Origin: a bacterium A37T11
GTDB taxonomy: Bacteria; Bacteroidota; Bacteroidia; Sphingobacteriales; Sphingobacteriaceae
Direction: 5' to 3'
Assembly: GCA_900109895.1 (NCBI GenBank)
Contig: FOBR01000001.1
Location: forward strand, 248,001 to 312,000
Length of the DNA: 64,000 nucleotides
The translations under genes and the position numbers were made by a program. Shown piece by piece: positions 5,118 through 35,161 of the stretch; positions within the stretch are counted from its first letter, which is position 1, and each line of letters begins with the position of its first letter. Under the pieces are notes generated by a model, which searched no databases, had not been told where the DNA came from, and saw nothing but the letters and a program-made list of their open reading frames with translations.

Positions 5118-8100
5118 CTAAAAATTAATACCAAGCGCCATGGTATAAGTAGGTGTCAGGTATGACTTTTCATAACTACCTGTTGACAAGCTATAGTTAT
5201 ATTTATTAAAACCCACTGTAAATACATTAGACACTTGCCCCCGAAGCTCTATACTAATCCCTTTCTCTCTCAAAATGCGGCTTTGCCTAAACGTATAAGA
5301 CGCTGTAATATCACTCAGAGTTAGGTAGGATCCATTTACAATATACTTATCTGTATATTTCATGTACGAATAGTAATTACTTCCGATGGTTGGCAATACT
5401 TCGGGTTTCAACTCATCACCTGCCTGTTTCCAATAATTATTGGCCCCTTCCAGCGGTCGGTTGTCCCTGGCAAAAGGTACCGTGACCCTGGTCACAAAAC
5501 CACCGAAATAATTGAACATGCAATAGAAATAAAAATTATCGATGTCAACCCGGTTACTCATGCCCATGCTATATGAAGGAATCATACTGCCCAAGTTTTT
5601 AACATCCTCCAGGCCTTTGTTAGGGCCGCTGAAGAGTTTGGCATTGCCATCCTTGTCATAGATCTGCGGATTGCCCAAAGAGTCTACACCTGCATACCGG
5701 TAAGCAAAAGTGGTCCCTACGGCATATCCTTTTAGGTAATTGGCATTACCAGCGGTTACATAATTCAGGGAACTGGTGGTGGGATCAATAATTTTGGTAT
5801 TATAAACGTTTAGCACTTTGCTGCCGTTGTGTGAAAAAATCAAACCCGTATTCCAATTGAATTTCCTGGTTGAAATCCAATCTGCATGCAAATTTATTTC
5901 GAAACCATTGTTGCGGATGGAGGCCCGGTTTACGATAGCAGAAGTAGAGCCTTTTGTGGCATCAATTTGGCTGTTGGCCAGTATATCGGTACTTTTCTTT
6001 ACGTAATAATCAAAACCACCTGTCACCCCTTTCAGTACCTCATAATCTAACCCGAAGTTCACATTGCTGGTTTGCTCCCAGCGCAGCCCACTATTGGCTA
6101 AAGACGAAAGGCTCAACATAGGAAGTGTGTAGGATGAACTTAATTTATTGGTTAGGCCGGCACTGGCGATAACCTCCGGCAAGGAGCCCTGTGCCACATT
6201 GCCATTAAATCCGTAGGCTGCACGCAACTTTAATGATTTAACCCAGTCCAAATCGTGCATAAAACTTTCTTTATGGATATTCCACGCGCCCCCTAAAGAC
6301 CATAACGGTTTATAATGATATTTGGGGTTGGTACCAAACAAATTGGACTGCTCAATGCGTATACTGCCCGATAACACATACTTGGTTTTGTAGGAGTATA
6401 CTAAATTAGAATATAAGGAAATATACCGGTTCTCTACATACACTACATGAAACAGCCCAGTACCATCATTTCCACCACCATAGGAAATTGCAGGGTTTCC
6501 GCGCGCTATCGTAGGCACAAAATCCTGCAGTGATTTATAATCAACAGGCTGATTTAAGAGCGTTTGATCATCATACCCAAAATAGGCCTCACTATTTGAT
6601 TTTTCAATTACATCCCGCACTTCAGTACCTGCAATTAAATTGAGCGTATGGTCTGGGGCCACCTGTTTGTCATAGCTTAGCTGTGCCCGTACCGTATAGC
6701 TTTGTTTACTTCCTCCGTTTTTTGTCAACAGCCCTCCGGTGGGTATAGCCGAAGTATACCGTTTATTAATATCATCATAAGTCGTATACCTGTTGATGTA
6801 TTGACGTACTTCTGAAGAATTTTCGCTCGCCAAGTGGTCCTGGTCTATTTTGGAAATCTCGTAGACACCTCCAAATGCAACGTTAAGGCCATTGATTATA
6901 TTATACCTAAAATTAGCTGTTATTCGGTCAGTGAGTGTACTATATTTATTATTCACCTCATTTATGTCCACTAATGGATAGCGCCTGTTATCCAACAAGC
7001 CTTTAGACAACAAATAATCGTTATAATACGAATTGGCATAAGATCCACTAAATATTGACAGCGGATTTCCATCCGCATCCTGCAAATGTTCATACGGATA
7101 TAAGGAATGTATATCCGGTACCGGAGAAGATTTCTGGTTTGCGGTTTGAAAATCATTGGTCAGGTCCATGGAAAAGCGTTTTGAAAAATTAACCATGGTG
7201 CGTCCTGATAAATGAAATTGATTATTGTCATTCTTAATCTGGGAGGCATTTCCATTCACATAATTGGCCGTCAAATAAAAAAGCGCATCTTTAGTACCAC
7301 CAGATGCTGCCAGATAATACGTTTGCGTAGCCGCATTTCGCAAAAATAAACGGCTGTAGTCTTTCGTATTATTGTAGGAGCCCAACTCAGCAAACTCCTT
7401 GTCGCGCTCTTCAAGCGATATGGGATTGCTTGAAGAACGCCAGTGCGCCATAATTTCGGCGGTTGGTGAATAATTATATAAATCTGCATACAACGGGTTG
7501 GTCATCAGCATCCAACCAAAGTTGCTTATATTTTTGTTAAAAATTTTATCCGCTTCGATGACAGTATTGGAAGCATCCTTATCCCAGCGGAAACGATCGT
7601 AGTTATCATGCGGAGTTATACTTGCTGTAGTCCGGAAATTGAGACGTACCTTTCCCACATTGGCCTTTTTACGTTCTATGACAATCACCCCGTTTGAAGA
7701 TCGTGCACCATAAATAGAGGCCGCAGCAGCATCTTTTAAAACTGTAACCGACTCAATTTCATACGGATCAATTGTACTTAGTGTCATTTCAGTGGGGAAG
7801 CCATCCATCACGATAAGCGGTTGTTTATTGCCACTGATGGTTGAAATTCCCCGGATCTGAAACAGATTATTGTCTTCAAATTGAACATCGTTATTAATGA
7901 GCAGGCCGGGGATTTTATTTTGAAGTCCCAATAAAAAGTCGGTGGTATTAATACGGCTATCGTAATCTTTTAAGCCAATATAACTAACACTCCCGGTAAC
8001 TTGCTCGGGCTTAATCTTCTGGTATCCGTTATTAACTGAAGTAATCTCCACATCCTGCAGTGCGTTTTGTTCGGCCGTTAAGGTAATGTTAAGGCTTATG

Positions 8101-8702
8101 TAGGTGTTTCCAACCCTTTTAAACCGGATGTTTGAAGGAGCGGTAGTACCTGATAGCAGGTCAGCCAAACGGATATCCAAGCTTTGAAATCCTACCGAAC
8201 TAATATGAATAACGGCATCATTGGGCACATTTGGGAATATAAATTGGCCTGACGCATTGGCCGAGACCCCCAAATTAGCCTTTAGTACCCGAATAGTAAC
8301 TCCTGGTATTGGATGGCCTGAGGAATCGGCCACCGTGCCAGAAAGTGTCAGCGAGGGCTGATCCGAGGTTATCTGGGCCACCGGTTTTCGGGCAATCAAA
8401 ATATTGGTGCCGCTGATCTCATAGCTTAACGGCTGATCGTGAAAAAGCTGTTGCAAAAAGGTATTTAGCGGCATCTTTACTGCCGTCAGCGTGACCGCAT
8501 GGCTTTCATTGATCAGCGCCTTATTTGCCAATACACGAAAGCCGCTCTGATCAAAAATCCGTTTAAATATCTCTTCCATGGACATGTTTTTGCCCTGGAT
8601 ACTGATCGTTTGCGAATACGTAGCGGCGCTGAGGTGCAGGAAACCGCCAAGAAGTAGGAGCATGATTAATCTCATCACCCGAAAAAAGTAAGTTTTTGTC
8701 AT
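5118..8702 (-). CDS. SusC/RagA TonB-linked outer membrane transporter with STN domain (locus 1)
   Basis: 1194 residues. Order: signal peptide (about 1-30), STN/secretin-TonB N-domain (about 40-105, starting ISIQGKNMSMEEIFKRIFDQ), CarboxypepD_reg beta-sandwich (about 118-205, LSGTVADSSGHPIPGVTIRV), TonB-box/plug (about 225-350, with the SusC signature TVLKDAAAASIYGARSSNGV), then a 22-strand type barrel to the C-terminal phenylalanine. The STN domain marks a transducer that signals to a FecR anti-sigma factor, and a FecR gene lies directly upstream. It imports SusD-bound ligand into the periplasm with TonB energy. The shared N-terminal RVMRL motif, also in the other two sigma-linked SusC proteins, supports this start. 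Confidence 0.94.
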   Translation of the reverse strand: MTKTYFFRVMRLIMLLLLGGFLHLSAATYSQTISIQGKNMSMEEIFKRIFDQSGFRVLANKALINESHAVTLTAVKMPLNTFLQQLFHDQPLSYEISGTNILIARKPVAQITSDQPSLTLSGTVADSSGHPIPGVTIRVLKANLGVSANASGQFIFPNVPNDAVIHISSVGFQSLDIRLADLLSGTTAPSNIRFKRVGNTYISLNITLTAEQNALQDVEITSVNNGYQKIKPEQVTGSVSYIGLKDYDSRINTTDFLLGLQNKIPGLLINNDVQFEDNNLFQIRGISTISGNKQPLIVMDGFPTEMTLSTIDPYEIESVTVLKDAAAASIYGARSSNGVIVIERKKANVGKVRLNFRTTASITPHDNYDRFRWDKDASNTVIEADKIFNKNISNFGWMLMTNPLYADLYNYSPTAEIMAHWRSSSNPISLEERDKEFAELGSYNNTKDYSRLFLRNAATQTYYLAASGGTKDALFYLTANYVNGNASQIKNDNNQFHLSGRTMVNFSKRFSMDLTNDFQTANQKSSPVPDIHSLYPYEHLQDADGNPLSIFSGSYANSYYNDYLLSKGLLDNRRYPLVDINEVNNKYSTLTDRITANFRYNIINGLNVAFGGVYEISKIDQDHLASENSSEVRQYINRYTTYDDINKRYTSAIPTGGLLTKNGGSKQSYTVRAQLSYDKQVAPDHTLNLIAGTEVRDVIEKSNSEAYFGYDDQTLLNQPVDYKSLQDFVPTIARGNPAISYGGGNDGTGLFHVVYVENRYISLYSNLVYSYKTKYVLSGSIRIEQSNLFGTNPKYHYKPLWSLGGAWNIHKESFMHDLDWVKSLKLRAAYGFNGNVAQGSLPEVIASAGLTNKLSSSYTLPMLSLSSLANSGLRWEQTSNVNFGLDYEVLKGVTGGFDYYVKKSTDILANSQIDATKGSTSAIVNRASIRNNGFEINLHADWISTRKFNWNTGLIFSHNGSKVLNVYNTKIIDPTTSSLNYVTAGNANYLKGYAVGTTFAYRYAGVDSLGNPQIYDKDGNAKLFSGPNKGLEDVKNLGSMIPSYSMGMSNRVDIDNFYFYCMFNYFGGFVTRVTVPFARDNRPLEGANNYWKQAGDELKPEVLPTIGSNYYSYMKYTDKYIVNGSYLTLSDITASYTFRQSRILREKGISIELRGQVSNVFTVGFNKYNYSLSTGSYEKSYLTPTYTMALGINF

Positions 8703-8756
8703 TTGTGATTTGTTTTGCGCAAGGATTGACTTTTTAATTTCCTATCTTGCGCATGG

Positions 8757-8782
8757 TTTGGATAGTTTAACACACATTATTT
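8757..8782 (-). promoter_or_regulatory. Candidate ECF-sigma promoter of susC locus 1
   Basis: On the minus strand the block AAATAA is followed 12 bases later by TATCCAAA. The same pair occurs before susC of locus 2 (13-base spacing) and locus 3 (12-base spacing) and not before the sigma-less susC of locus 4. The placement upstream of the regulated gene and the ECF-like spacing suggest -35 and -10 elements read by the cognate sigma factors. No transcript start is known. Confidence 0.5.
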
Positions 8783-8815
8783 CTTGCATAGGATAATTGC
8801 ATATCCAGGCCATTT

Positions 8816-8846
8816 AGGGGAGTGTTGCAAGCATTCCCCTTTTTTA
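8816..8846 (+). terminator. Plus-strand intrinsic terminator between fecR and susC, locus 1
   Basis: Nine-base arms AGGGGAGTG and CATTCCCCT close a loop of seven bases and are followed by six T on the plus strand. The one non-Watson-Crick position is G-U in plus-strand RNA but A-C in minus-strand RNA, so it is built for an antisense transcript, not for the sense operon. Confidence 0.75.
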
Positions 8847-8881: not shown

Positions 8882-10117
8882 TTAGGGCTTACCTCCTGCT
8901 TTAGCACTAATCACCAGCTTCCTGTCCGGGTCAAGCCGATAATTTAAATCATTACTTTTTAGTATTTTGAACACTGTGGACAAGTTTTCATCCCTATTCA
9001 GGCTTCCAAAAAGTTCAATTGGCGGAATGGTCCCTTCATACGTCACATCCAGGTTATACCATCGGCCAAGTTGCCGCATGGCCTCTTGCAGCGTTTTCCC
9101 AGTAAAATAAAAGTAACCTTTTTTCCAGGCAATTATACTTTCCAAATCTGCTTTCACGACTTGGATATTTCCATTTTTAAGAATAGCTTGCTGCCCGGGT
9201 TCTAACACCATACCATCGTCCGGAAGGCCGGAAGTTGAAAAACCGGTAGCAACTTTCCCAATAGATACCCTTACAGATCCGGAGACCAGGCTTGTTTTTA
9301 TTTCTTTTTCATCCTTATAAGAAGAGAGGTTAAAAGCTGTCCCCAAGACAGTGACGTACTGGTTTTGGGATTTTACGATAAATGGCCAAACCTGTTTTTG
9401 GGTCCGACTTCCGGATGCGCTTACCTCAAAATAAGCTTCACCCTCCAATTCAACCTCCCGGCTATCACCAGTGAAATGGTTCGGGTATTTTAAACTAGTG
9501 GCCGCATTGAGCCAAACTTTTGTGCCATCACTCAGTATGATTTGGTACTGACCTCCTTTTGGAGTGGACAAACTTAACATCTTATTATCTACGATTGATT
9601 TACCCTGCGCACTGGTCTTTTCTTTCGTCATAATATTTGTTCCATCATTATAAACAATTTGCTCGTCGTTTATTTGAATACCCGCTTTGGCGCTATCAAG
9701 GTTTATTGTCGTGCCGTCGGCTAACGTTAAGGTGGCTTGGTTATATCCGGGTTGAAGCGCAGTTGCAGCGACGCTTTTAGCTTCTGTCTTCCTGCCTCCA
9801 GTTATAGGATAAAAATATAAACCTATAGCCAAAGCTACCAACAAGACAGCCGCTGCATACCAACGGTACCTAACCACAAGTTTCCTGCGCAAAGGCACAT
9901 CCAAGCCTTTTTTTAGACTAATGGACGCACTAATAGCGCTAAAATTGGAGGCTGCGGCACGTTTAAGGAGTTCCTCAGACGGGACACCGTCTTCCCTGCC
10001 CAAATATTGCAGCAAGTGCAATTCCAACTGCTGTCTTTCAGCCGGGCTGCACGTACCGTCCTGATATTTGCGAATAAGCTCCTTTACTTCTTCCAGTTCC
10101 ATTTCATGCAGGGTCAT
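8882..10117 (-). CDS. FecR-family anti-sigma factor (locus 1)
   Basis: 411 residues. A cytoplasmic N-terminal anti-sigma domain (about 1-80) is followed by one membrane helix (about 86-104) and a periplasmic FecR domain (from about 125, with GQYQIILSDGTKVWLNAATS and the motif EVELEGEAYFEV), then the C-terminal DUF4974 part (GYFYFTGKTLQEAMRQLGRW). It holds the neighbouring ECF sigma factor until the STN domain of SusC touches its periplasmic end. Sigma lies 71 bp upstream and SusC 179 bp downstream in the same direction. Length is usual for Bacteroidota FecR proteins. The substrate signal is unknown. Confidence 0.93.
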   Translation of the reverse strand: MTLHEMELEEVKELIRKYQDGTCSPAERQQLELHLLQYLGREDGVPSEELLKRAAASNFSAISASISLKKGLDVPLRRKLVVRYRWYAAAVLLVALAIGLYFYPITGGRKTEAKSVAATALQPGYNQATLTLADGTTINLDSAKAGIQINDEQIVYNDGTNIMTKEKTSAQGKSIVDNKMLSLSTPKGGQYQIILSDGTKVWLNAATSLKYPNHFTGDSREVELEGEAYFEVSASGSRTQKQVWPFIVKSQNQYVTVLGTAFNLSSYKDEKEIKTSLVSGSVRVSIGKVATGFSTSGLPDDGMVLEPGQQAILKNGNIQVVKADLESIIAWKKGYFYFTGKTLQEAMRQLGRWYNLDVTYEGTIPPIELFGSLNRDENLSTVFKILKSNDLNYRLDPDRKLVISAKAGGKP

Positions 10118-10188: not shown

Positions 10189-10764
10189 TTAAGGTTGCAG
10201 TAAAAAAAGCAGAACGCTAAGCCCCAGCTGCACTTTCACATTGCCCATAGCCATACTGAGCAAGTTTTTTACGGTCTTTTCTGAAATACCCAGCGCCAAG
10301 GCAATCTCCGCTTCACTGAAATGTTGGAAATGGGTCATCAGAAAAACCTGCCCCATTTTTCCCGGCAGCGTGGCGGCAATTTGTTCCAAACGGACTATTA
10401 ATTCACGCTCAAACACATACTCTTCTACAGGAAGCCGTTCTTCCTTCAAGTAGTCCATCAAGTCTGCCTGGTAGCGGCTCCAGGTACCCCGATCGCGCTC
10501 ACGGTTCAAAAAGCAGTTACGTACCATAAATTGAAGGTAGCCCAACAGCATGCCCTGAATATCCAGCTGAGCCCGCTTCTGCCAAAATTTTATAAATATA
10601 TCCTGAATGATATCGTTGCTTTCATCTTCGTCACCGGTTAGTTTATAAGCGAGGCTATACAAAAACGGATGATAATGGTGGTATATCCGGGTAAAAACAA
10701 CCTCATCTCCTTCCTTAAGCCGCAGAAGAAGCTCTTTTTCATCCGTGAGAGGGATCCGTTGCAT
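10189..10764 (-). CDS. RNA polymerase ECF sigma factor (locus 1)
   Basis: 191 residues, with the region 2 core FTRIYHHYHPFLYSLAYKLT and DIIQDIFIKFWQKR and the region 4 helix-turn-helix FSEAEIALALGISEKTVKNL. It should direct polymerase to promoters of the adjacent susCD operon when freed from FecR. The C-terminus ends in a short hydrophobic tail (LSVLLFLLQP), a trait shared by all three complete sigma factors here. A 21-base upstream box is identical to one before the broken sigma gene at 23.7 kb. Start chosen at the first ATG, which fits the family N-terminus (DEKELLLRLKEGDE). Confidence 0.93.
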   Translation of the reverse strand: MQRIPLTDEKELLLRLKEGDEVVFTRIYHHYHPFLYSLAYKLTGDEDESNDIIQDIFIKFWQKRAQLDIQGMLLGYLQFMVRNCFLNRERDRGTWSRYQADLMDYLKEERLPVEEYVFERELIVRLEQIAATLPGKMGQVFLMTHFQHFSEAEIALALGISEKTVKNLLSMAMGNVKVQLGLSVLLFLLQP

Positions 10765-15637: not shown

Positions 15638-18600
15638 TTAAAGTGAACATTTTAGACCAAAAGTAATGGTGCGCAGCGGCGGTATATTGGTAGCCGCGGT
15701 CTCTGGATCATACCCTTCAAAATTAGATATGGTAAACAGGTTTTGTGCACGGGCATAGAGTGTAATCGCAGCTATTTTTAACTTTTGAGACCACGCTTGT
15801 GGAAAGGTATAAGAGAGTGCCACATTTTTCAGCCTGAAATACGCCGCATTACTAATCGTCGCACTGGATTGCGTATACATATAATAAGTAAAAAATGGAG
15901 AACCTTCACTAAAATCAAACTTAGTGGTCGCTATTTTTCCATTGGTCTCTTTATATAAATCATAAATGCCCTCATATAAATTGGACGCACTATATCCGGG
16001 AGGACTAAATGAATTGGAAAAATTACTGTTTCGTATTCCAGGAATCATTTTTCTTCCAACAAACTGCCCAAAAATATCCAGCTGAAAACTTTTATAGTGA
16101 AACGAGTTATTTATACCACCAAAGAAGGCCGGATCGCGTTTGCCTACTGTCACGTCATCCCCATTCCCATACGCGGCAAGACCATCTCCGGGCCAGCTTT
16201 GCGACCCATCTTTATTAGCATCCAAAAATCCAGGCAACCCCGTATTTGCATCTATTCCTGTATACTTAAGCATGTGAATTGAGCTCATTGATTCGCCCAC
16301 CACCAAACTGCTTACATAGCCCGTTTTTTCGATGCCATCAAACTTTTTGAGCTTAGTCTGTGCCAAACTAATATTAAAGGCAGTGGTCCAACTAAAATTT
16401 TTGGCCTTGATATTTTGGGTAGTTAATTCAAATTCGGAGCCCTTAGACTGTATAGTAGCAGGCATATTAGCTGTATAAGATGAGAAACCACTCAGTGCCG
16501 CCAGAGGATAGCTGACCAGCGGATTGGAAGTCTGGTTTAAAAACCACACCCCAGACAACAAAATACGGTCTTTCAAAAACCCAAGATTCAACCCTAATTC
16601 CAATTTCTTATTTACTTCCCACTTCAAATTGGGGTTTGCCACGTTAGACGGAGTCAGTCCATTAACACCATCATAAGCATTGCTTATAGTATACGTGTCA
16701 TAATATTGGTAATTGCTAATCTGGTCGTTACCCGTACTTCCATAACTTCCCCGTAGCTTCCCAAAGCTCAGCCAAGGTAGGCGGTCTTTAATCGCACCTT
16801 CTTCAGTGAATATCCAAGCGCCACCTATCGAAGCAAAACTACCATAGCGGTTGTTGACCCCAAATTTAGAAGAGGCATCCCACCGGTAGTTGACGTTCAG
16901 AATATACTTATCCAACCAATTATAGTTTAACCTACTAAACAACGAGCTGTATTTATAATCAGAATTAAACGAATAAGCCGTATAATTGCCTGCGGCCGTA
17001 TAATTATTCAGTAAGAAATCTGAATTATAATTGCTGGCTACGATGTAAAAAGGTTGATTATAGGATTGCCCTTGTAGCGTACCTCCCACCAAAATATTCA
17101 ACTTACCTTTCCCTATATGGTGTGTATAGTCAGCCTGCGGCTCCACATTCCAGGCGTTGGTATAGTTTTCCTGGAAATAAGCTCCCGGGTTTTGTCCATA
17201 GAAAGGATTGATGGAGGTAGAGTAATGCAAATCTTTCTGGTACATGGACAGCCGGTTGTAGCTGCTGCTCACTTTTAAGTTAAGCCCGGTAATTGGACTA
17301 TACCTTAATATTACATTGCCAACCAAGTTATAATTGGAGGAAGAAAATTTTTCGTTGGTATAGGCCAGAGGGTTATTAAAATTGGAATTATACCAATAAA
17401 GATTTCCTGTACTATCGTATAAGGGATAGTTGGGTACCTGGGAATAGGCTATTCCAGCCAAGTCTGAGCTTTCGAAAGTACGCGCAGAACTGCTATTTTT
17501 ATCGAGCGTATACATCACCGAAGTATTCAGTCCAAATTTTTTATCTTTCGACTGATGATCAATGGACATATGAAAAGCACCCCTTTTATAATTAAAATCA
17601 CCCGGAATCACCTGACCCTCGTTATGGTAGGTTCCACTTAGCAGGAAGTTGGTAAATTCGTTCCCACCGGAGAAAGATAAGTTGGCATCCGTATTATGGG
17701 CAGTCCCGCCAAACAAAAGCTTTTGCCAATCGGTGGTTTTAGTTGTATCCCAAACCAACAAATCAGGTGCATTGTTTACATTGGGCGTTTTTCCACTGTT
17801 GATGAAGGCCTGGCGCCTGATCTCTAAATATTGACTTAACGTAAGAGATTTTACCGCATGCAAGTTCTGTACACTATTAAATCCCTCACTTACGCTAACA
17901 TCCAGATTAGATTTACCTCCTTTGCCCCTTTTTGTAGTAATCAGGATGACCCCATTCGCTCCCCGGCTACCATAAAGCGCCGTAGCATCCGCATCTTTTA
18001 AAACGCTAATACTCTCTATATCAACTGGATTTATTGTATTCAGCGGACTACTCCCAAAAGATGGCTTTAAATATCCTACCGTATTTCCACCCGTACTATA
18101 GAGCGGATCTGAAACAAATGGCACGCCGTCTACAATAAATAAAGGTGTAGTACCGGCAGAAATGGAGCTGGCAGCCCTGATCTGCACGGAAACACCCCCA
18201 CCAGGTGTTCCACTTTGTTGGGTAATGAGTAAACCGGGTATCTTACCTGACAAGGCTTCCAATACATTCGTAACTGTTTGTTTTTCTATATCGGCCGCTG
18301 TTACCGAACTCACGTTACCTGTACTTATTCTCCGGCTGGTAGTACCATAACCAATTACTTGGACTTCATCCAGATCGCTGGTTTGGGAAGATAAGAAAAA
18401 ATTATAAGTTCCTTCTTTTACTTTAGTCACTTTGCCACCATCCAGTGTAAGAATACCGCCAGCAGGCAACGCGCTCAAGCTGGCATATCCAATTTCCAAC
18501 TTAGAAAATCCCATCGAAGTCAGGATGAGGGTTGCATTATCGGGTATCTGGTTTAACGTAAACCGGCCATACCCATCAGAGACGGTTTTTTGTTTAGTGC

Positions 18601-19027
18601 CTTTGACCGAAATAGTAGCCGAAACAATTGGCTCATTGTTCACAAGGTTAAACAGTTGTCCAGTTAATGGATACTGGGTTGTATGGACTGGGGAAGCAGG
18701 CGCGGCATCCTTTTCAGAAACCACTATGTTCTTGCCATGAATCTCTACCTTCCATGCTTGTCCTTTTGTTATTTCTGCCAAAAATGTCTCTAAAGGCATA
18801 TTTTGTGCATTGATAGCAATGGTTTTCGCTTTTCCCAACAACTCAGCATCACCAAAAACGCGGTAACCTGTTTGTTGTTGTATGGCATTAAAAACATCCG
18901 CCAAAATCAACTTGTTCCCTTTTAGGGTTATTGTCTGAGAATAACTGGCAGCACTCAGCTGCAGGAATCCGATGGTCAAAAATAAGATGAGTAAACGCAT
19001 CACTCTACACAGTAATTTTTTTTTCAT
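15638..19027 (-). CDS. SusC/RagA TonB-linked outer membrane transporter with STN domain (locus 2)
   Basis: 1129 residues from the chosen start. Order: signal peptide (LLILFLTIGFLQLSAASYSQ), STN domain (TLKGNKLILADVFNAIQQQT), CarboxypepD_reg domain (LTGQLFNLVNNEPIVSATIS), TonB box and plug (DLDEVQVIGYGTTSRR and ISVLKDADATALYGSRGANG), then the barrel. The STN domain makes it a signal transducer for the FecR protein upstream. An ATG 30 bases further upstream is open, but MKKKLLCRVMR aligns with the starts of the other two STN-type SusC proteins, and the longer start would place coding sequence across the conserved promoter box. Confidence 0.93.
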   Translation of the reverse strand: MKKKLLCRVMRLLILFLTIGFLQLSAASYSQTITLKGNKLILADVFNAIQQQTGYRVFGDAELLGKAKTIAINAQNMPLETFLAEITKGQAWKVEIHGKNIVVSEKDAAPASPVHTTQYPLTGQLFNLVNNEPIVSATISVKGTKQKTVSDGYGRFTLNQIPDNATLILTSMGFSKLEIGYASLSALPAGGILTLDGGKVTKVKEGTYNFFLSSQTSDLDEVQVIGYGTTSRRISTGNVSSVTAADIEKQTVTNVLEALSGKIPGLLITQQSGTPGGGVSVQIRAASSISAGTTPLFIVDGVPFVSDPLYSTGGNTVGYLKPSFGSSPLNTINPVDIESISVLKDADATALYGSRGANGVILITTKRGKGGKSNLDVSVSEGFNSVQNLHAVKSLTLSQYLEIRRQAFINSGKTPNVNNAPDLLVWDTTKTTDWQKLLFGGTAHNTDANLSFSGGNEFTNFLLSGTYHNEGQVIPGDFNYKRGAFHMSIDHQSKDKKFGLNTSVMYTLDKNSSSARTFESSDLAGIAYSQVPNYPLYDSTGNLYWYNSNFNNPLAYTNEKFSSSNYNLVGNVILRYSPITGLNLKVSSSYNRLSMYQKDLHYSTSINPFYGQNPGAYFQENYTNAWNVEPQADYTHHIGKGKLNILVGGTLQGQSYNQPFYIVASNYNSDFLLNNYTAAGNYTAYSFNSDYKYSSLFSRLNYNWLDKYILNVNYRWDASSKFGVNNRYGSFASIGGAWIFTEEGAIKDRLPWLSFGKLRGSYGSTGNDQISNYQYYDTYTISNAYDGVNGLTPSNVANPNLKWEVNKKLELGLNLGFLKDRILLSGVWFLNQTSNPLVSYPLAALSGFSSYTANMPATIQSKGSEFELTTQNIKAKNFSWTTAFNISLAQTKLKKFDGIEKTGYVSSLVVGESMSSIHMLKYTGIDANTGLPGFLDANKDGSQSWPGDGLAAYGNGDDVTVGKRDPAFFGGINNSFHYKSFQLDIFGQFVGRKMIPGIRNSNFSNSFSPPGYSASNLYEGIYDLYKETNGKIATTKFDFSEGSPFFTYYMYTQSSATISNAAYFRLKNVALSYTFPQAWSQKLKIAAITLYARAQNLFTISNFEGYDPETAATNIPPLRTITFGLKCSL

Positions 19028-19040
19028 TAATTTTACGACG

Positions 19041-19067
19041 TTTGGATAATGTAACAATTTGTTATTT
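19041..19067 (-). promoter_or_regulatory. Candidate ECF-sigma promoter of susC locus 2
   Basis: Minus strand AAATAA, 13 bases, TATCCAAA, the same arrangement as before susC of loci 1 and 3. The TATCC block lies 14 bases before the chosen start codon, leaving only a short leader. Confidence 0.5.
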
Positions 19068-19136
19068 GATCACTTAAATACGGACTGTTTATCCATACTG
19101 CGCAGGGAAGGGGTGCGAGCCTTTCCTGCTTTTTTA
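19045..19136 (+). ncRNA. Candidate DonS-like antisense RNA, locus 2
   Basis: A plus-strand RNA of about 90 bases would start after the box TAATTTTA (19028, one mismatch to TAnnTTTG, right beside the susC start codon) and end at the hairpin at 19102. It is antisense to the susC promoter and leader. Position and size match loci 1 and 3. The 5' end is uncertain. Confidence 0.4.
19102..19136 (+). terminator. Plus-strand intrinsic terminator between fecR and susC, locus 2
   Basis: Ten-base arms GCAGGGAAGG and CCTTTCCTGC, loop of eight, then six T on the plus strand. The single imperfect pair is G-U only in plus-strand RNA. No U-tract exists in the other direction. Confidence 0.77.
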
Positions 19137-19145: not shown

Positions 19146-20360
19146 CTACTTATGCCCTAACTCAGGCGCTCCCTCCCTTTTCAACGTACTTATGACTAGT
19201 TTTCCTTCTTCAAACCGATATTTTATATTAGAACTCTTCAGTAACCCTAAAATGACTGATAGCTTATCATCGCGAAAAGCAGAACCAAAATAGGTATTGA
19301 CAGGCGGGTCGCCCTCATAAACCACTTCCAGGTTGTACCATCTGCTTAGCTCGCGCATAATTTGTGAAAAAGATTTCCCCTGAAAAGAAAACACACCGTC
19401 GCGCCAAGCCGTTTCATTGTCTACATTTACTGATTTCACCAGTATTTTACCCATCGCGTTAATCGCCTGCTGGCCTGGTTTTAACAGTTGACTATCCATA
19501 GAACCATTTGTAGATGGGTTTAATGTGCTTATCCGCACCGCTCCGCTGACCAGGGTGGTTTTAATCTCCTTTTCATCCGCATAAGAAGAAAGGTTAAACG
19601 AAGTACCCAAAACACGTATCACCTGGTTCTGGCTTTTTACCGTAAACGGTTTATCCGTGTCATTTGCTATGCTAAAGAAAGCTTCTCCCGTTAAAGATAC
19701 TTCCCTTGTTTTGCCAAAGTGGCTTGGGTAGGTTAGCGTGGTAGCGGCATTAAGCCAAACTTTGGTACCATCATCCAGTATGATTTGGTATTGACCACCT
19801 TTAGGCGTAGTCAATGCATTATAAATAATGGATGATGAATTAGCGACGGGCGCTTTCAATGAAGTACCATCGTTATAAACAGTTTGTCCGGCAGTGACTT
19901 TTATTCCATTTTTAGTGCTATCCAGGCTTACTTTAGCCCCATCCGCCAGCGTTAAAGTGGCTTGGTTAAAGCCAGGCCTGATTTCCGTTGTAGTGACTTT
20001 TCGCTTTGTAAAAGAGGAAGAAAGGCTTCCGGCCTGTTGCCTGTTGATGATATATAAATATATTCCTGCCCCAATTAATGAAATCGCTGCGGCATAGGGC
20101 AACAACCGGATCAAAAAATGTTTGGGTGCTGGAAATAGTTTCTTTTTAAGGCGGTCATGGATCTGTAGAATAGCCTGTTCCCCACCGTCATCCAACGGCC
20201 TATTGTCTATGGCTGTCCCAAGTGCTTGCTTTACCAGTTTCTGGAGCTGTACCGGGTCTGTGGTGCCAAATTGCGTCATCAATTCCCGTACTTCGGCCGC
20301 TGTGGCGCGGTTATCCAGGAATCGCTGATAGCGTGCTTGTATGTCGTTTTCTTGATCCAA
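19146..20360 (-). CDS. FecR-family anti-sigma factor (locus 2)
   Basis: 404 residues. N-terminal cytoplasmic anti-sigma region (1-80), one membrane helix (about 83-105, LLPYAAAISLIGAGIYLYII), then the FecR domain with GQYQIILDDGTKVWLNAATT and EVSLTGEAFFSI, and a C-terminal DUF4974-like part (GVFSFQGKSFSQIMRELSRW). It lies between the sigma gene (66 bp upstream) and SusC (118 bp downstream), all on one strand. It should inhibit the adjacent sigma factor until SusC's STN domain signals. Family length and order are normal. Confidence 0.93.
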   Translation of the reverse strand: MDQENDIQARYQRFLDNRATAAEVRELMTQFGTTDPVQLQKLVKQALGTAIDNRPLDDGGEQAILQIHDRLKKKLFPAPKHFLIRLLPYAAAISLIGAGIYLYIINRQQAGSLSSSFTKRKVTTTEIRPGFNQATLTLADGAKVSLDSTKNGIKVTAGQTVYNDGTSLKAPVANSSSIIYNALTTPKGGQYQIILDDGTKVWLNAATTLTYPSHFGKTREVSLTGEAFFSIANDTDKPFTVKSQNQVIRVLGTSFNLSSYADEKEIKTTLVSGAVRISTLNPSTNGSMDSQLLKPGQQAINAMGKILVKSVNVDNETAWRDGVFSFQGKSFSQIMRELSRWYNLEVVYEGDPPVNTYFGSAFRDDKLSVILGLLKSSNIKYRFEEGKLVISTLKREGAPELGHK

Positions 20361-20426: not shown

Positions 20427-21023
20427 TTAACACCACAGCAAGAAGGCTGCAAGGAGCAGTGCCGGGCCTCCGTAACTATTGAAAAGAAATTGCCTAACGC
20501 TTTTGGTAGCGCGTACTATGTGGGTACTGACAGTAGCCGTACCAATACCCAACTGTTCACTAACTTCCTGGTAACTCTTTCCCTCCAGCTTAACCAACTT
20601 AAAAACCTGACGTTGTTGGTCAGGAAGGGCTTCAATGGCACTATCGATAAGCGCCTTGCTTTCTTTATACAGCAAATCTTCCTCAGTGTGCAGGTATAGC
20701 TCACTACTGGCGGCGATGATCGCTTGCTGCAATTGCTGGTCCCGGGCGCTACGACGGTAAAGATCATGCACCAGGTTACCGGCGATGCGAAGTATATAAG
20801 GGATAATCGGCTGGTCGGGATCAATTAAAGATCGTTTTTCCCAAAGACGGACAAAGGTTTCCTGCGTCAGCTCTTCTGCATCATCCTTACTTTTTACCAT
20901 GTACAGCAATTTACGGTACACACCGCGACTATATGCGTTATAAATTTCAGAAAAAGCACTTTCACTGCCTTCTTTTAAAGAAAGTAGCACATTTACGTCA
21001 CTTTTACCTGCTGACCGTGCCAT
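20427..21023 (-). CDS. RNA polymerase ECF sigma factor (locus 2)
   Basis: 198 residues. Region 2 includes FSEIYNAYSRGVYRKLLYMV and AEELTQETFVRLWEKRSLID; region 4 includes QVFKLVKLEGKSYQEVSEQL and GIGTATVSTHIVRATKSVRQ. It ends in a hydrophobic tail (GPALLLAAFLLWC). It should drive the downstream susC-susD operon on release by FecR. The start ATG follows a good vegetative promoter with TTTG and TACCTTGG boxes. Nothing is missing compared with the family. Confidence 0.93.
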   Translation of the reverse strand: MARSAGKSDVNVLLSLKEGSESAFSEIYNAYSRGVYRKLLYMVKSKDDAEELTQETFVRLWEKRSLIDPDQPIIPYILRIAGNLVHDLYRRSARDQQLQQAIIAASSELYLHTEEDLLYKESKALIDSAIEALPDQQRQVFKLVKLEGKSYQEVSEQLGIGTATVSTHIVRATKSVRQFLFNSYGGPALLLAAFLLWC

Positions 21024-29613: not shown

Positions 29614-32600
29614 TTAGAGTGTCGCCTGGATACCCAGGTTTATAGTGCGTAAAGGTGGTATAGCACTTTTTAAGCTTTCAGGATCTAAGCCTTTGTAACC
29701 TGTAAATGTCCATAAGTTTTGAGCCTGGATGAATACCTTTAAATTTTGAAAATGAAGCTCGGAGTTTACTTCCTTTGGAAGTAGATATGAAATGGACAAG
29801 TTCTTTAAGCGAACAAATGAAGCATCTGTAATTCCACTATTCAATGCATATCCGCTAATTGTTTCATTTGCAGATGTCGTACTATACTTTTGGATAGGTT
29901 TTATATCTCCCTCCTTTTGCCAACGCTCAAGTGCATAAGTAGGCTGATTGTTCGATCCACTTTGAAAACTACCCATACTTCCTCGGAAATAATCATCATT
30001 CGAGTACGCCTTTTGTTTCACAAATTGGAAAAACACGTCCAGTTGTATCCCTTTATATTGGATGGTATTTTGAAATCCGCCGTAGAAAGTCGGAGCAGTG
30101 TTAACAACAACTGTCCGGTCCGTTCCATAGGCAGGGCTGCTTGTTAACTCTCCCTTTGCTGTAATAAACTGATACAGGCCTGTGGCTGGATTAACACCGT
30201 GCAGATTATAGTTCTTGGTGATACTTAGAGGTTGCCCAATAACGAGCGTAGATCCATAGGATGAACTAGCCAGATTGGGAAAAGCAGCAAGTTTGTTTCG
30301 TGCGCTGGTAAAGTTGAGGGAACTATTCCAAGAAAAAGACCTGCGCTTGATATTATATGTTTGTATACTAAACTCCCATATCGTATTCTGAACCGTTGCA
30401 GGAAAATTACTGGTGATTGAAGTAAAACCAACAAAACTTGGTAACGAATAGGGTAATAGTTGATTACTTGATCTATTTTTAGAATAGCTTATTCCTGCGA
30501 TAATACGGTCTTTCCAAAAACCCAAATCAATACCAAGACTTAATTTTCTGGTACTTTCCCATTGTAACAAGGGATTATACAGGTTGCTCACGGTTAATGT
30601 TGCAATACCTTGATAGGGAACCCCTATAGTTAGGTTCTGAAATAAACTGTAATACTGATAATCGGGAATCTGATCATTGCCCGTAGTCCCATAGCTTCCC
30701 CGTATCTTCCCAAAACTTAAAGCTCCAATATTATCCTTGACAAAGGATTCCTCGCTGAAGATCCAGGCAGCGCCAACAGCGCCAAAACTATGAAAACGAC
30801 TATCCGGACCAAATCGACTGCTACCATCTCGACGGGCCGTAAGATTAAGGATGTATTTTTTCCTGTAAGAATAATTTAGCCGCGTAAAAAGCGCACTATA
30901 CCGATATATAAGATCAATGGGTGTATTATAAACCGTTGTTGCCGAAGAAAGACTACGTATCAGCAAATCACTGCTATATCCATAGCTAGCTGTGTAAAGA
31001 TTATTGCTGTTTTTTCGTTGAATGGTTCCACCTAATAGCATGTCAAAACTATGCGGTCCCAGGTTTTTCTTATAGTTGATTTGGGGCTCTACAATCCACG
31101 AACTGATCGTACTATTGGAGGATGTCACAGATCTCGAAAAGGTTGCAAGCCTGGAGGGATCTACTGAGGCGGCCAATGTAGGGGTAAAATCACGTATATT
31201 CAAATAGTTATACCCTAAATTTGCCAATACTATCAAACCAGATACTACTTGATAACTGATAGCCGCATTGCTCAATAAGGTCTTGGTAGTATTCTCATAG
31301 TGGTTTAGGAGTGTACCCATTGGATTCGTCCAACTGCCAACTCCGGAAGGACGCGGTGCCCAATTTAGGGTTCCATCCGCTTTATATAATGCGGGGGCGT
31401 TAGGTGCTAAAAAAATGGTTGAGGCAGTGAAATCGGTAGTAGGCAGGATATTCTTATCATATAGATAGCTAGTGGAAAGCTGAAGCTTATACCGTTGGTT
31501 TTTGGATGTATTGCTCAGGCTAAAATTAGCACTTCCTTTTTGATCCTTAAAATCACCTGGAAAGACCGTGGTTTGCTTAAAATAAGTTCCCCCAAATAGA
31601 AATTTAGTCAAGTCATTTCCTCCAGACACAGAAGCATTTGCACTGGTCGTTTTGGCTGTACCGCCGATCAATACTTTTTGCCAATCGGTATACCTGGTCG
31701 TATCCCACAAACCATTAACATCGTAGTCGGTGTTTGTGGGAGTAGTGCTAATAGACGGAACGGTCAGCCCATCATTTTTAAAGGCTTCCCGACGCATTTC
31801 TAAATATTGAGAGGTGTTCATCAAATCCAGTTTTTTTGCGATGGTCCCCCAACCCTGTTGATAATCAGCAGTAAGCCTTGTAGGACCGGTCAAACCTTTT
31901 TTCGTTGTAATGATGATAGCCCCATTCGCGGCACGGGAGCCATAAATAGCGGTAGCATCGGCGTCCTTCAACACGGTGATGCTCTCAATAGTTGATGGAT
32001 TTAGATAGTTAAGCGGACTTCCATTACCTGTATTACCAACTCCCCCTCCAGAAGTTTTTAAAATATCAGCCCCTGAAAACCGCAACGTTTGTGAAGGATA
32101 TGGCATGCCATCCACTACAATCAACGGGTCGTTTCCGTTTGCTGTATATATGCTATTTTGACCTTGCAATCGAACAGTGACTCCACCTCCTGCAAGGCCG
32201 GTATTTTGGGTCACTACGAGGCCAGGGATGCGTCCCTGAAGGGCTAGTAACGGATTTTGCACCGGTTGTTTGGCTATATCTTCTGCGCTAATGGAACTAA
32301 TGTTTCCGGTAGATAGGCGACGACTGGTAGTACCATAGGCAATAATTTGTACTTCATCAAGCGCCGATTGGGTGATGTGTAGCACAATGCTTCCCATTTG
32401 CGCTTTTGCTGGAAGTTCCTTTGGCTGGTAGCCCATAGCTGTGATTTGAAGCGTAGTTCCGATGGGGACGTTGTTTAAGATAAACTGGCCATTAGAACCC
32501 GATGAGCTAGTACTATTACCATTTTTCACCCTGATTGTCGCTCCGGCAATGGGTTGGCGCAGGGAGTCGGTGACGCGACCGATGACGGTAATGGTTTGTT

Positions 32601-32982
32601 GAAGCGATCCTTCGGCAGGCCCGGAATGACGAGAGGGCAAGAAAATGTCAAGAAAACTTTCTTTTTTCTTCTCCAACAAAATATTTTTATCAACCAATCG
32701 GTATGTCAGGGGCTGATCGCTGAACACCTGGTCCAGAAACCCTTCCAAGGGCATGTTTTCGGCACTTATGGTGATGTTTTTACTGTTTTTAAGCATAGAC
32801 TTGTTGCCGGCTACTTCATAGCCGGTCTGCTGGCGCACGGCTTCCAAAACGGTTGCTAGGGGCAGGTGTGTACCTTTCAGCGTAACCGTTTGTGAATAGC
32901 TGGCAGCACTCACGGTTAGGAAGCCACCCAACAGAAAGCATAGGAGTAAACGCATCACTCTATAAAAGTAAATTTTATTCAT
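29614..32982 (-). CDS. SusC/RagA TonB-linked outer membrane transporter with STN domain (locus 3)
   Basis: 1122 residues. Signal peptide (LLLCFLLGGFLTVSAASYSQ), STN domain (TLKGTHLPLATVLEAVRQQT, about 35-105), CarboxypepD_reg domain (about 130-205, VIGRVTDSLRQPIAGATIRV), plug with SITVLKDADATAIYGSRAAN, and the barrel ending in LGIQATL. The STN domain predicts signalling to the FecR protein upstream. Downstream partners are SusD, thioredoxin and an S9 peptidase. Start MNKIYFYRVMR aligns with the other STN-type SusC starts. It is complete. Confidence 0.94.
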   Translation of the reverse strand: MNKIYFYRVMRLLLCFLLGGFLTVSAASYSQTVTLKGTHLPLATVLEAVRQQTGYEVAGNKSMLKNSKNITISAENMPLEGFLDQVFSDQPLTYRLVDKNILLEKKKESFLDIFLPSRHSGPAEGSLQQTITVIGRVTDSLRQPIAGATIRVKNGNSTSSSGSNGQFILNNVPIGTTLQITAMGYQPKELPAKAQMGSIVLHITQSALDEVQIIAYGTTSRRLSTGNISSISAEDIAKQPVQNPLLALQGRIPGLVVTQNTGLAGGGVTVRLQGQNSIYTANGNDPLIVVDGMPYPSQTLRFSGADILKTSGGGVGNTGNGSPLNYLNPSTIESITVLKDADATAIYGSRAANGAIIITTKKGLTGPTRLTADYQQGWGTIAKKLDLMNTSQYLEMRREAFKNDGLTVPSISTTPTNTDYDVNGLWDTTRYTDWQKVLIGGTAKTTSANASVSGGNDLTKFLFGGTYFKQTTVFPGDFKDQKGSANFSLSNTSKNQRYKLQLSTSYLYDKNILPTTDFTASTIFLAPNAPALYKADGTLNWAPRPSGVGSWTNPMGTLLNHYENTTKTLLSNAAISYQVVSGLIVLANLGYNYLNIRDFTPTLAASVDPSRLATFSRSVTSSNSTISSWIVEPQINYKKNLGPHSFDMLLGGTIQRKNSNNLYTASYGYSSDLLIRSLSSATTVYNTPIDLIYRYSALFTRLNYSYRKKYILNLTARRDGSSRFGPDSRFHSFGAVGAAWIFSEESFVKDNIGALSFGKIRGSYGTTGNDQIPDYQYYSLFQNLTIGVPYQGIATLTVSNLYNPLLQWESTRKLSLGIDLGFWKDRIIAGISYSKNRSSNQLLPYSLPSFVGFTSITSNFPATVQNTIWEFSIQTYNIKRRSFSWNSSLNFTSARNKLAAFPNLASSSYGSTLVIGQPLSITKNYNLHGVNPATGLYQFITAKGELTSSPAYGTDRTVVVNTAPTFYGGFQNTIQYKGIQLDVFFQFVKQKAYSNDDYFRGSMGSFQSGSNNQPTYALERWQKEGDIKPIQKYSTTSANETISGYALNSGITDASFVRLKNLSISYLLPKEVNSELHFQNLKVFIQAQNLWTFTGYKGLDPESLKSAIPPLRTINLGIQATL

Positions 32983-32999
32983 TAACTTTGTTTATTAGC

Positions 33000-33025
33000 T
33001 TAGGATAGTAAATACACAGTTATTT
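33000..33025 (-). promoter_or_regulatory. Candidate ECF-sigma promoter of susC locus 3
   Basis: Minus strand AAATAA, 12 bases, TATCCTAA, matching the arrangement at loci 1 and 2. It lies 18 bases before the susC start codon. Confidence 0.5.
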
Positions 33026-33063
33026 TTACGCAATAGGGATAATCATTGCTATCCGGGCTGATT

Positions 33064-33096
33064 AAGGGGAGTGTACCACCACTCTCCTTTCTTTTT
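33064..33096 (+). terminator. Plus-strand intrinsic terminator between fecR and susC, locus 3
   Basis: Arms AAGGGGAGTG and CACTCTCCTT with a loop of six, followed by a T-rich run. The single imperfect pair is G-U only in plus-strand RNA, as at loci 1 and 2. Confidence 0.72.
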
Positions 33097-33131: not shown

Positions 33132-34457
33132 TCATGGCTTTTCCCCTCCTTTTTTGGCCTGCATTATGATCATTTTTCGTCCTTCCAACCGGTAGCGGAT
33201 GCCATTGGCCTCCAGCAGCGCCATTACGGTGGATAAAGTATTGCTTCGGTATATCCCCCCGAAAAATTCGGGCTCGGGGATTTTCCCCTCGTAAAGCACT
33301 TCGATGTTATACCAACGGGATAACTCGGCCATGATCTGGGTAAATGGTTTGTTGTCGAAACTGAATTTGTTATCTTTCCAGGCCAGTTCGCGGGTAATGT
33401 CCACTTTGCTCACCGTTAGGCTGTCGCCTTTTACTACCGCTTGCTGCGCTGGAGTTAAAAGTTGTAGGTTATACGTTTTAAGTTTTAAGTTTTGCGATTT
33501 GACTTGGACTTTTCCTTCTACCAGGGTTGTTTTCGTTTCTTTTTCATCGTTGAACGCTGTGACGTTGAATTTGGTGCCAAGGACTAATATTTCTTGGTTG
33601 CGGCTCTTTACTACAAATGGCACATTTGATTTACGATTTACGAGGTACGATTTACGATTATCCTGCATGGCGCCGATTGAAGGATTGTTATTTACTTCGA
33701 AGTATGCTTCGCCTTCCAAACTCACTTCCCTCCTATCTCCCGAAAATCGGGATGGGTACTTCAAAGTGCTGGCTGCGTTTAACCAAACCTTAGTTCCGTC
33801 GCTGAGTATTATTTGGTATTGGCCGCCTTTGGGGGTGGACAAAGTTAACATCGTACTATTTACGATTGACGAATTACGATTTTCGGAACGAAGTGTAGAT
33901 CCCGATGAGCGAAGCGGGTCGGGAACGATTGTTTTTGCTGCGATTTTTGTTCCATCATTATAACTAATATCCTCGTCTCTGATTTGGATTCCGCGTTTGG
34001 CACTATCCAACTCCACTTTCGTGCCGTCAGCCAAGGTTAGCGTGGCTTGGTTGTAGCCTGGTAAAATCTCTTGATTTACGATGTTAGTTTTACGATTTAC
34101 GAATAAATCGCCTCGATAAAGGTATAGTGCCGTGGCTAAAGCTACTATAATGGCTGCAGCGGCGTAATATTTCATATATGACCATCGGTACTGTTTATGG
34201 GGAGAAAGTTGTTTTACGGGCTTCTCTGGCGGCTGTATTCGGTCGTGGAGCTTTTGCTTGACGCCCGCAACGAGGTGGTCTATCCGTTCTTCCTGGTCTG
34301 GGATGACTTCCAGCCGATGGATTTCTTTGCGGATGTTTTCCCGAAGGTTCGCTTCGTCTTCTGCTAATTCAAAATAGCGCAGCAGCTCGTCCAGCTCTTG
34401 TTCGCTGTACTGGTTGCTGAGGTATTTTTGAAATAGTTCCTGAAGACGTGATTCCAT
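33132..34457 (-). CDS. FecR-family anti-sigma factor with repeat-derived insertions (locus 3)
   Basis: 441 residues, 30-37 longer than its two paralogs here. Anti-sigma region 1-90, membrane helix about 94-114, FecR domain with GQYQIILSDGTKVWLNAAST and EVSLEGEAYFEV, and C-terminal FSFDNKPFTQIMAELSRWYN. The extra length sits in linkers: IVPDPLRSSGSTLRSENRNS, AMQDNRKSYLVNRKSN, QNLKLKTYNLQL and NRKTNIVNQ. Their DNA is made of TTTACGA/TTACGAT-type heptamer repeats and a CCCGA...TCGGG hairpin, that is, repeat elements inserted in frame. The core motifs are intact, so it should still control the sigma factor 68 bp upstream. Confidence 0.92.
   Translation of the reverse strand: MESRLQELFQKYLSNQYSEQELDELLRYFELAEDEANLRENIRKEIHRLEVIPDQEERIDHLVAGVKQKLHDRIQPPEKPVKQLSPHKQYRWSYMKYYAAAAIIVALATALYLYRGDLFVNRKTNIVNQEILPGYNQATLTLADGTKVELDSAKRGIQIRDEDISYNDGTKIAAKTIVPDPLRSSGSTLRSENRNSSIVNSTMLTLSTPKGGQYQIILSDGTKVWLNAASTLKYPSRFSGDRREVSLEGEAYFEVNNNPSIGAMQDNRKSYLVNRKSNVPFVVKSRNQEILVLGTKFNVTAFNDEKETKTTLVEGKVQVKSQNLKLKTYNLQLLTPAQQAVVKGDSLTVSKVDITRELAWKDNKFSFDNKPFTQIMAELSRWYNIEVLYEGKIPEPEFFGGIYRSNTLSTVMALLEANGIRYRLEGRKMIIMQAKKGGEKP
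33456..33512 (-). repeat. Short-repeat insertion in fecR, segment a
   Basis: The plus strand reads GTTAAAAGTTGTAGGTTATA then CGTTTTAAGTTTTAAGTTTT. It is close to the ACGTATAAC-type array inside the CHAP gene at 36.1 kb and encodes the linker KSQNLKLKTYNLQLL. Confidence 0.5.
33621..33674 (-). repeat. Heptamer repeat insertion in fecR, segment b, with GGCGCCATGCAGG boundary
   Basis: Four copies of GATTTAC/GGTAC-GATTTAC type heptamers end at CCTGCATGGCGCC (33662-33674). The same 13-base boundary ends the insertion at 36116-36158 in another gene. The insertion keeps the frame. Confidence 0.65.
33858..33928 (-). repeat. Heptamer repeat plus REP-like hairpin insertion in fecR, segment c
   Basis: Plus strand TTTACGATTGACGAATTACG is followed by a hairpin of CCCGA and TCGGG arms around GCGAAGC. 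It encodes VPDPLRSSGSTLRSENRNSS, absent from both paralogs. Confidence 0.55.
34070..34107 (-). repeat. Heptamer repeat insertion in fecR, segment d
   Basis: Plus strand TGATTTACGATG then TTTTACGATTTACGAA, the same heptamer type as segments b and c. It lies at the linker right after the membrane helix. Confidence 0.5.
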
Positions 34458-34525: not shown

Positions 34526-35125
34526 TTATATTCCTTGTAAAATAGCCGAAACCAGTACGATGAGGCCTAAACCGGTATTGGGGTTAAAGTATTGTTTAAA
34601 GAAAGCATTGGCCTTTTTGATGTGGTCGTTGATGGCATTGACCGATACGCCCAGCTGTTGGGCGGCTTCTTCGTAGGACAGGCCATCTATCTTACACAGG
34701 ATGACGACTTCCCGTCGTTTCGGGGGGAGCTGGTCAATGGCCTTATATAATAAGGTCCGGTTTTCGGCATCAAACAGCTTTTCTTCAATGTGGCTGTAGA
34801 GCTCTGTGGCGGTGTTCAAAAAGTGCTTACGCATTTCTTTATCACGGCTGGCCTTGCGGAAACGATCATAGACCAGGTTTTCGGCTATGCGAAACAGGTA
34901 GGCCTTAATGGGTTGTTCCGGATCGATCTTTTCCCGGTTCTCCCAAAGTTTCATAAACAGGTCTTGCAGGGCTTCATCAGCCATGTCGTTGTCTTTGAGT
35001 AAACGGAGCAGATTTTTGGCTAATTGCCGCTTATAGGTATCATAAATAAGGTTAAACGCAGCGTAATCTCCTTCCCGAAGGCGGTGTAGGGTGTCTTTTT
35101 CGTCTGGAGTATCGGTTGTCTGCAT
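34526..35125 (-). CDS. RNA polymerase ECF sigma factor (locus 3)
   Basis: 199 residues. Region 2: FNLIYDTYKRQLAKNLLRLL and ADEALQDLFMKLWENREKID; region 4: VVILCKIDGLSYEEAAQQLG and VSVNAINDHIKKANAFFKQY. The tail is hydrophobic (LGLIVLVSAILQGI). A longer open frame begins at 35251, but its first 42 residues have no family match and cover the promoter region, so the ATG at 35125 is used. It should drive the locus 3 operon after release from FecR. A TATCCAAA box 37 bases upstream hints that the sigma factor may also activate its own gene. Confidence 0.92.
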   Translation of the reverse strand: MQTTDTPDEKDTLHRLREGDYAAFNLIYDTYKRQLAKNLLRLLKDNDMADEALQDLFMKLWENREKIDPEQPIKAYLFRIAENLVYDRFRKASRDKEMRKHFLNTATELYSHIEEKLFDAENRTLLYKAIDQLPPKRREVVILCKIDGLSYEEAAQQLGVSVNAINDHIKKANAFFKQYFNPNTGLGLIVLVSAILQGI

Positions 35126-35161
35126 AACGGACTGTTTTGATGGAGTAAAGTTAGGGAATTG

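Follow-up and report, generated by a model that had tools for sequence, protein, structure and literature searches.

Organization of the FecR-SusC loci

The window, i.e. the whole stretch of 64,000 nucleotides from the Sphingobacteriaceae bacterium A37T11 analyzed here, harbors three operons in which, according to Pfam, an ECF sigma factor gene is followed by a FecR anti-sigma gene and then by susC, all on the minus strand (Table 1). Each fecR-susC gap contains a hairpin whose U-tract lies on the plus strand only, and in which one G-U pair would read A-C on the minus strand. These three hairpins had been reported in a preliminary description of the window, and they hold with re-derived coordinates. 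The same is true for the -7 box that it placed at the susC start of locus 3, as well as for the weaker one of locus 2, which differs from TANNTTTG at one position. The box that it proposed at the start codon of locus 1 is probably wrong, the likely one being located about 40 bp upstream of the ATG (8702). This box is of the TAnnTTGY type, described as a second box type in Flavobacterium, where it occupies the same place with respect to the start (-12 to -5; PMC9723704). Concerning the predicted RNAs, the lengths of 92, 96 and 99-102 nt are counted from box + 12 through the last base of the U-tract and do not correspond to mapped ends.

Table 1. Features of the three FecR-SusC loci of the window (positions are those of the window; R1 is the covariance model described below).
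Locus	Feature	Position	Strand	Basis or remark
1	Predicted -7 box TATCTTGC of the antisense RNA, TAnnTTGY type	8743..8750	+	12 nt before the first base of P1, as in other loci
1	Predicted antisense RNA, ~92 nt	8755..8846	+	R1 covariance match 8755-8848, 64.7 bits; fold
1	P1 5' arm GGTTTGGATA	8755..8764	+	Fold, covariation
1	P1 3' arm	8802..8811	+	Fold, covariation
1	Intrinsic terminator	8816..8846	+	Hairpin 8816-8840 and T-run 8841-8846
1	susC (STN-type TonB-dependent receptor), predicted target	5118..8702	-	Pfam Plug, STN
1	FecR anti-sigma	8882..10117	-	Pfam FecR, FecR_C
1	ECF sigma factor	10189..10764	-	Pfam Sigma70_r2, r4_2
2	Predicted -7 box TAATTTTA	19028..19035	+	1 mismatch to TANNTTTG; abuts susC start codon
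2	Predicted antisense RNA, ~96 nt	19040..19135	+	R1 match 19039-19135, 67.4 bits
2	P1 5' arm	19040..19049	+	
2	P1 3' arm	19089..19098	+	
2	Intrinsic terminator	19102..19135	+	Hairpin 19102-19129 and T-run 19130-19135
2	susC, chosen start = ATG ending at 19027	15638..19027	-	Pfam Plug
2	FecR anti-sigma	19146..20360	-	Pfam
2	ECF sigma factor	20427..21023	-	Pfam
3	-7 box TAACTTTG, abuts susC ATG	32983..32990	+	Exact TANNTTTG
3	Predicted antisense RNA, ~99-102 nt	32995..33096	+	R1 match 32998-33096, 71.8 bits
3	P1 5' arm	32995..33011	+	
3	P1 3' arm	33046..33061	+	
3	Intrinsic terminator	33064..33096	+	Hairpin 33064-33089 and T-run 33090-33096
3	susC, predicted target	29614..32982	-	Pfam
3	FecR anti-sigma	33132..34457	-	Pfam
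3	ECF sigma factor	34526..35251	-	Pfam

Two further elements of these gaps should be mentioned. An inverted repeat reading approximately AGACGCCAGTnnnnnACGTCT on the antisense strand lies between the antisense terminator and the fecR stop, at 33098-33118 and at about 8848-8866 of the window, and is also found in loci L072, L075, L085, L086, L088 and L099 of our set; it may belong to the sigma-dependent promoter of susC or act as a processing hairpin. In locus 1, susC and the RNA gene are also some 50 bp further apart (8712-8753), the additional segment being flanked by the inverted repeat TTGCGCAAG ... CTTGCGCAT, which overlaps the predicted -7 box.

An antisense terminator in FecR-SusC gaps

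The genome to which the window belongs (G000) contains about 80 FecR genes. A gap was taken to extend from the stop codon of FecR to the following large ORF, whose first ATG served as the susC start, an assignment that is wrong in some loci (among them L095 and L099, recognised from the position of the box). Out of 79 FecR-SusC gaps, 54 present an intrinsic terminator on the antisense strand and only one on the sense strand, compared with 6.5% and 0.9%, respectively, for dinucleotide-preserving shuffles of the same gaps. When looser loop and U-tract settings are used, antisense terminators are found in 60/67 gaps of 80-400 bp and sense terminators in 4/67, with no antisense terminator recognised in 7/67, while shorter gaps (below 80 bp) have one in only 1/10.

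As a negative control we used 21 SusC genes without FecR, 20 of them from elsewhere in the genome and one from the window. None shows a box near its start (0/21) and a single one an antisense terminator (1/21). Hence, the antisense unit tracks FecR control, and not SusC as such.

Terminator loops such as GTTGGTAGCA are common to distant genera (e.g. L051, L346 and L349). The loop motif is present in 21/54 and 23/60 terminators, against 0/9 other hairpins of the window, but as the pattern was chosen after inspecting the data we give no weight to this enrichment.

Predicted promoter of the antisense RNA

An exact copy of the -7 box of the Bacteroidota housekeeping sigma factor, TANNTTTG, is found on the antisense strand between -8 and +12 of the susC start codon in 43/67 long gaps, where 2.8% is expected from shuffles, and on the sense strand in 1/67. 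Common offsets to the ATG are -5 (TA-cat-TTTG, which spans the start codon), -1 and 0, and offsets of +8, +20, +37, +43 and +63 are also observed. The distance between box and terminator, determined in 53 loci for boxes with at most one mismatch, has a median of 74 nt (IQR 71-78), the position of the terminator following the box and not the ATG. We found no clear -33 element upstream of the antisense -7 boxes, and a search by eye for a shared sigma promoter motif on the sense strand yielded none.

The overlap of promoter and coding sequence is reflected in the protein, since a TA-cat-TTTG box spanning the start codon gives a SusC beginning with M-Y. This start is frequent among FecR-linked SusC of the genome (L031, L032, L037-L039, L042, L043, L045 and others), and is seen in only 1/21 SusC genes without FecR. 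The antisense promoter appears to shape the second residue of FecR-linked SusC.

A second helix and the strand under selection

To predict where the RNA starts we relied on the published position of the box, -12 to -5 (PMC9723704). Folding of the predicted RNAs reveals, in addition to the terminator, pairing between the 5' end and the segment immediately preceding the terminator, which we call P1. Predicted start (box + 12) and first paired base of P1 are in register, with a median offset of 0 (IQR -1.25 to 0.25). The P1 duplex within a locus has an energy of -11.4 kcal/mol, against -7.3 kcal/mol when 3' strands are permuted among loci (0/20,000 permutations as low). When loci with a P1 of the GGATA type are left out, the remaining 33 also pass the test (-10.1 against about -6.0 kcal/mol permuted; 0/20,000), and hence the pairing reflects co-variation and not shared sequence alone.

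Which strand is selected can be derived from the imperfect pairs, as a G-T in the antisense strand corresponds to an A-C in the sense strand. Counted blind to strand, terminators yield 68 G-T and 5 A-C, with 42 loci favouring antisense and none sense, and P1 yields 74 G-T and 7 A-C, with 36 loci against none; after permutation of the P1 partners the counts are 29 G-T and 9 A-C. Both helices are therefore selected in the antisense RNA. The predicted folding energies are -32.2 kcal/mol for the antisense and -20.7 kcal/mol for the sense strand, the antisense value being the lower one in 53/53 loci.

A covariance model (R1) was built from 19 copies of the genome itself. Screening the whole genome with R1 gives 24 matches at E <= 0.1, all of them in FecR-preceded gaps adjoining susC, and a second model, R2, gives 27/27 matches in this genome and 8/8 in a relative (G003) that lie beside a FecR gene in the antisense orientation. 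Among 59 sequences aligned to the model, 94.6% of the pairs are kept and 210 cells are changed on both sides, compared with 46 after shuffling; the covariation score is 0.601, against 0.234 shuffled (0/500 as high) and at most 0.163 when slid. It should be noted that this alignment was fitted to the structure, while the permutation tests are independent of such fitting. Identity within the main subfamily is 86% for the 5' arm and 37% for the centre. No window match above the gathering score was obtained with Rfam, local matches being at chance level only.

One of the gaps matched by R1, L079 (contig C17 of the same genome, near 217 kb), contains an insertion. A NusG-like gene (2256-2786 of the locus; PF02357, E 4e-12) lies between fecR and susC, and the antisense RNA gene (2993-3086, minus strand) is still found directly before susC (ATG at 3099).

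Distribution across genomes

Few R1 or R2 matches are found in distant genomes, the primary sequence of the RNA being lineage-specific. The range of the unit was for this reason judged from gaps located through FecR. Five other genera of the same family show an antisense terminator in 25/33 gaps and a sense one in 2. A FecR alignment used as query (a single FecR query matched nothing) retrieved 80 loci in named genomes. The resulting set of 78 gaps covers Pedobacter, Sphingobacterium, Parapedobacter, Mucilaginibacter, Olivibacter, Chitinophaga, Lacibacter, Ferruginibacter, Pseudoflavitalea, Pontibacter, Dyadobacter and unclassified MAGs. Here 60 gaps have an antisense terminator and 11 a sense one (several are near-perfect palindromes), and 51 have an exact box between -8 and +45. 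With E up to 1, R1 matches the named-genome loci 28 times, and 27 of these matches are antisense and at the position of the FecR-SusC gap. In the 59 relative loci having both box and terminator, P1 amounts to -10.5 kcal/mol against -7.1 kcal/mol permuted (z = -10.8; 0/20,000), and strand-blind G-T to A-C counts are 64:6 for the terminator and 51:4 for P1.

The layout also occurs inside Bacteroides. Both fetched Bacteroides finegoldii gaps of sufficient length carry it, L349 with box TACATTTG and a terminator 94 nt on, and L350 with TAAATTTG and a terminator 80 nt on. A terminator is likewise present in a Parabacteroides locus (L346), while gaps below 100 bp in the Bacteroides and Parabacteroides loci examined have no such terminator. 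In a further member of the class (G110), about one gap in two presents an antisense terminator. Outside class Bacteroidia, the few gaps examined do not contain the unit, and the FecR alignment had no matches among viral contigs. The antisense unit is, hence, shared by nine genera or more from the orders Sphingobacteriales, Chitinophagales and Cytophagales, and is present in B. finegoldii as well.

A side observation concerns the PLSDB records NZ_OY725xxx and OY72xxxx. Many of them are labelled as plasmids of Bacteroides finegoldii, Parabacteroides distasonis and Phocaeicola massiliensis but resemble chromosomal contigs, with argH, VOR subunits and sigma/FecR/SusC operons.

Proposed function

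The data above show the structure of the gene, the register between promoter and RNA structure, the strand-specific covariation, the linkage to FecR and the conservation. On sequence grounds it is close to certain that the FecR-SusC gaps contain an antisense RNA gene, its expression being inferred. That these RNAs form a DonS-type cis-antisense family outside Bacteroides, which restrains sigma-controlled susC, is a likely interpretation made by analogy, where expression, repression and pairing with the leader are all inferred.

In the proposed mechanism, each FecR-susC gap would hold a short RNA gene on the strand opposite to the operon. The RNA would start, in most loci about 12-20 nt upstream of the ATG, from a promoter of the housekeeping sigma factor with a -7 box that abuts or overlaps the susC start codon. 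The RNA would extend toward fecR for about 90-100 nt and end at its own intrinsic terminator, thus covering the region from about 12-20 nt to about 100-130 nt before the susC ATG. It would fold into P1, formed by the 5' end and the pre-terminator segment, and the terminator hairpin, leaving the variable centre exposed, and its sequence would be complementary to the leader of every susC mRNA whose start lies upstream, at the end of fecR or in the gap. With the cognate sigma factor off, the RNA, or the opposing transcription, would hold down leaky susC expression, and upon release of the sigma factor this antisense brake would be overrun.

That a susC leader can span such a region is indicated by the anti-sigma mutant of B. 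thetaiotaomicron PUL24, where a 5' end has been placed within the anti-sigma gene, 291 nt upstream of susC (PMC11501099); with a comparable start in the present loci, the susC leader would include the complement of the entire RNA. It remains possible that the sigma-dependent promoter lies inside or downstream of the antisense gene, in which case pairing with the leader fails and interference alone remains. Repression need not be universal either, and the effect may differ by operon, because the 32 PUL-associated antisense RNAs of B. thetaiotaomicron include cases of negative as well as of positive correlation with the operon concerned (PMC10994844).

The preliminary description had read the three hairpins as plus-strand terminators and had inferred DonS-like RNAs outside Bacteroides. 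The former is supported, its three loci being extended to 60/67 gaps with strand-blind counts of 68:5. The check that it had suggested, the fate of the hairpin in relatives, shows that the sequence changes and plus-strand pairing is kept (64:6; covariation 0.601 against 0.234). The latter is supported by sequence, RNA production and repression remaining inferred. The case was in fact understated, as the fixed promoter distance, the P1 helix and the absence of the unit without FecR were not part of it.

Alternative explanations

The main rival is transcriptional interference, in which antisense promoter and terminator act by themselves and the RNA is a by-product. The promoter overlaps the susC start and faces the operon, and with a terminator immediately ahead of fecR, antisense transcription would not leave the gap. 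A by-product, however, needs no 5' structure, yet P1 covaries under RNA-level selection (74 G-T to 7 A-C) and the RNA start is in register with it. As the 5' helix is under selection we favour a role of the RNA itself, and consider interference alone unlikely. Even less support is found for a network in which the RNAs chiefly target the leaders of other susC genes in trans and thereby rank substrates. There are about 60 related copies in one genome, and the 5' arm of the main subfamily is 86% identical, but the centre is only 37% identical, complementarity to the own leader is perfect, and no model match lies away from a FecR-preceded susC.

Two further possibilities are practically ruled out. 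The hairpin could serve the sense strand as attenuator, processing site or terminator after fecR, given that it directly follows fecR and that some relatives show near-perfect palindromes. Against this, the U-tract is on the antisense side only, the pair counts are 68:5 with 42 loci antisense and none sense, and folding favours antisense in every locus (-32.2 against -20.7 kcal/mol, 53/53); a sense-strand attenuator was thus rejected on U-tract side, G-T to A-C bias and folding energy alike. Alternatively, the -7 box near the ATG could merely be translation-start context (CAAA before the ATG) with an unrelated hairpin. A-rich sequence before the start codon is favoured in Bacteroidota, which speaks for this reading. 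But offsets to the ATG vary from -5 to +63 while the box-to-terminator distance stays at about 74 nt, and the box is found in 0/21 SusC genes without FecR. Both the fixed spacing and the FecR-less control contradict start-codon context as the cause of the box, and mere context is excluded because the terminator moves with the box.

The cis-antisense reading can be taken further. The antisense brake may be a standing part of sigma/anti-sigma SusC operons across much of class Bacteroidia, and not peculiar to Bacteroides. The RNAs would then follow a single structured design of ancient origin, with the 5' end held in a helix, a promoter within the first susC codons that constrains the protein start (M-Y in many copies), and a locus-specific centre giving each operon its own regulator. 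For this bolder version we find the arguments evenly balanced.

Comparison with known systems

RNAs of this kind are already known from Bacteroides, and their occurrence outside that genus is apparently new, as far as we can judge: we found no description of it in the literature searched, which did not cover the discussion of conservation in the original DonS paper. If so, a regulator known from a few Bacteroides operons becomes a general one, open to study in soil bacteria that live freely and are easy to grow, and a single genome supplies about 60 natural variants of it. The P1 and terminator structure together with the promoter position offer a handle for finding or mutating such RNAs in any genome. 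The RNAs also provide a candidate agent for the cis-acting intergenic control of PULs described in Bacteroides, where the agent was left open (PMC5635687).

Two known groups are related to the RNAs described here in part only. The FopS family of B. thetaiotaomicron also comprises many related small RNAs per genome, studied in relation to PUL control and with four members classed as antisense, but it is mostly intergenic (9/14), whereas the RNAs found here are all in FecR-SusC gaps (PMC11697453). The antisense RNAs of Flavobacterium psychrophilum, likewise a member of the phylum outside Bacteroides and with the same -7 box, are described mostly as products of imperfect termination or non-canonical initiation, and no FecR-SusC family is described in the relevant sections (PMC9723704).

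The closest relatives are DonS and the PUL antisense RNAs of B. fragilis and B. thetaiotaomicron (Cao et al. 2016, via PMC7366714, PMC10994844 and PMC11697453), which are likewise antisense to the susC start. The DonS family represses susC homologues (PMC7366714) by an unknown mechanism (PMC11697453). Those features of a DonS-type RNA that can be read from gene layout are present here, namely a location opposite the 5' end of susC in a sigma/anti-sigma operon (the three window loci and 60/67 long gaps) and a predicted promoter and terminator of its own (-7 box and intrinsic terminator at fixed spacing). The predicted length of 92-102 nt falls within the 78-128 nt of the family, and B. finegoldii L349 and L350 show the same layout inside Bacteroides. 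The RNAs described here differ from DonS in belonging to Sphingobacteriales, Chitinophagales and Cytophagales, where a single genome holds about 60 copies; they also have a covarying helix at the 5' end, for which no description was found in the searched literature on DonS-type RNAs.
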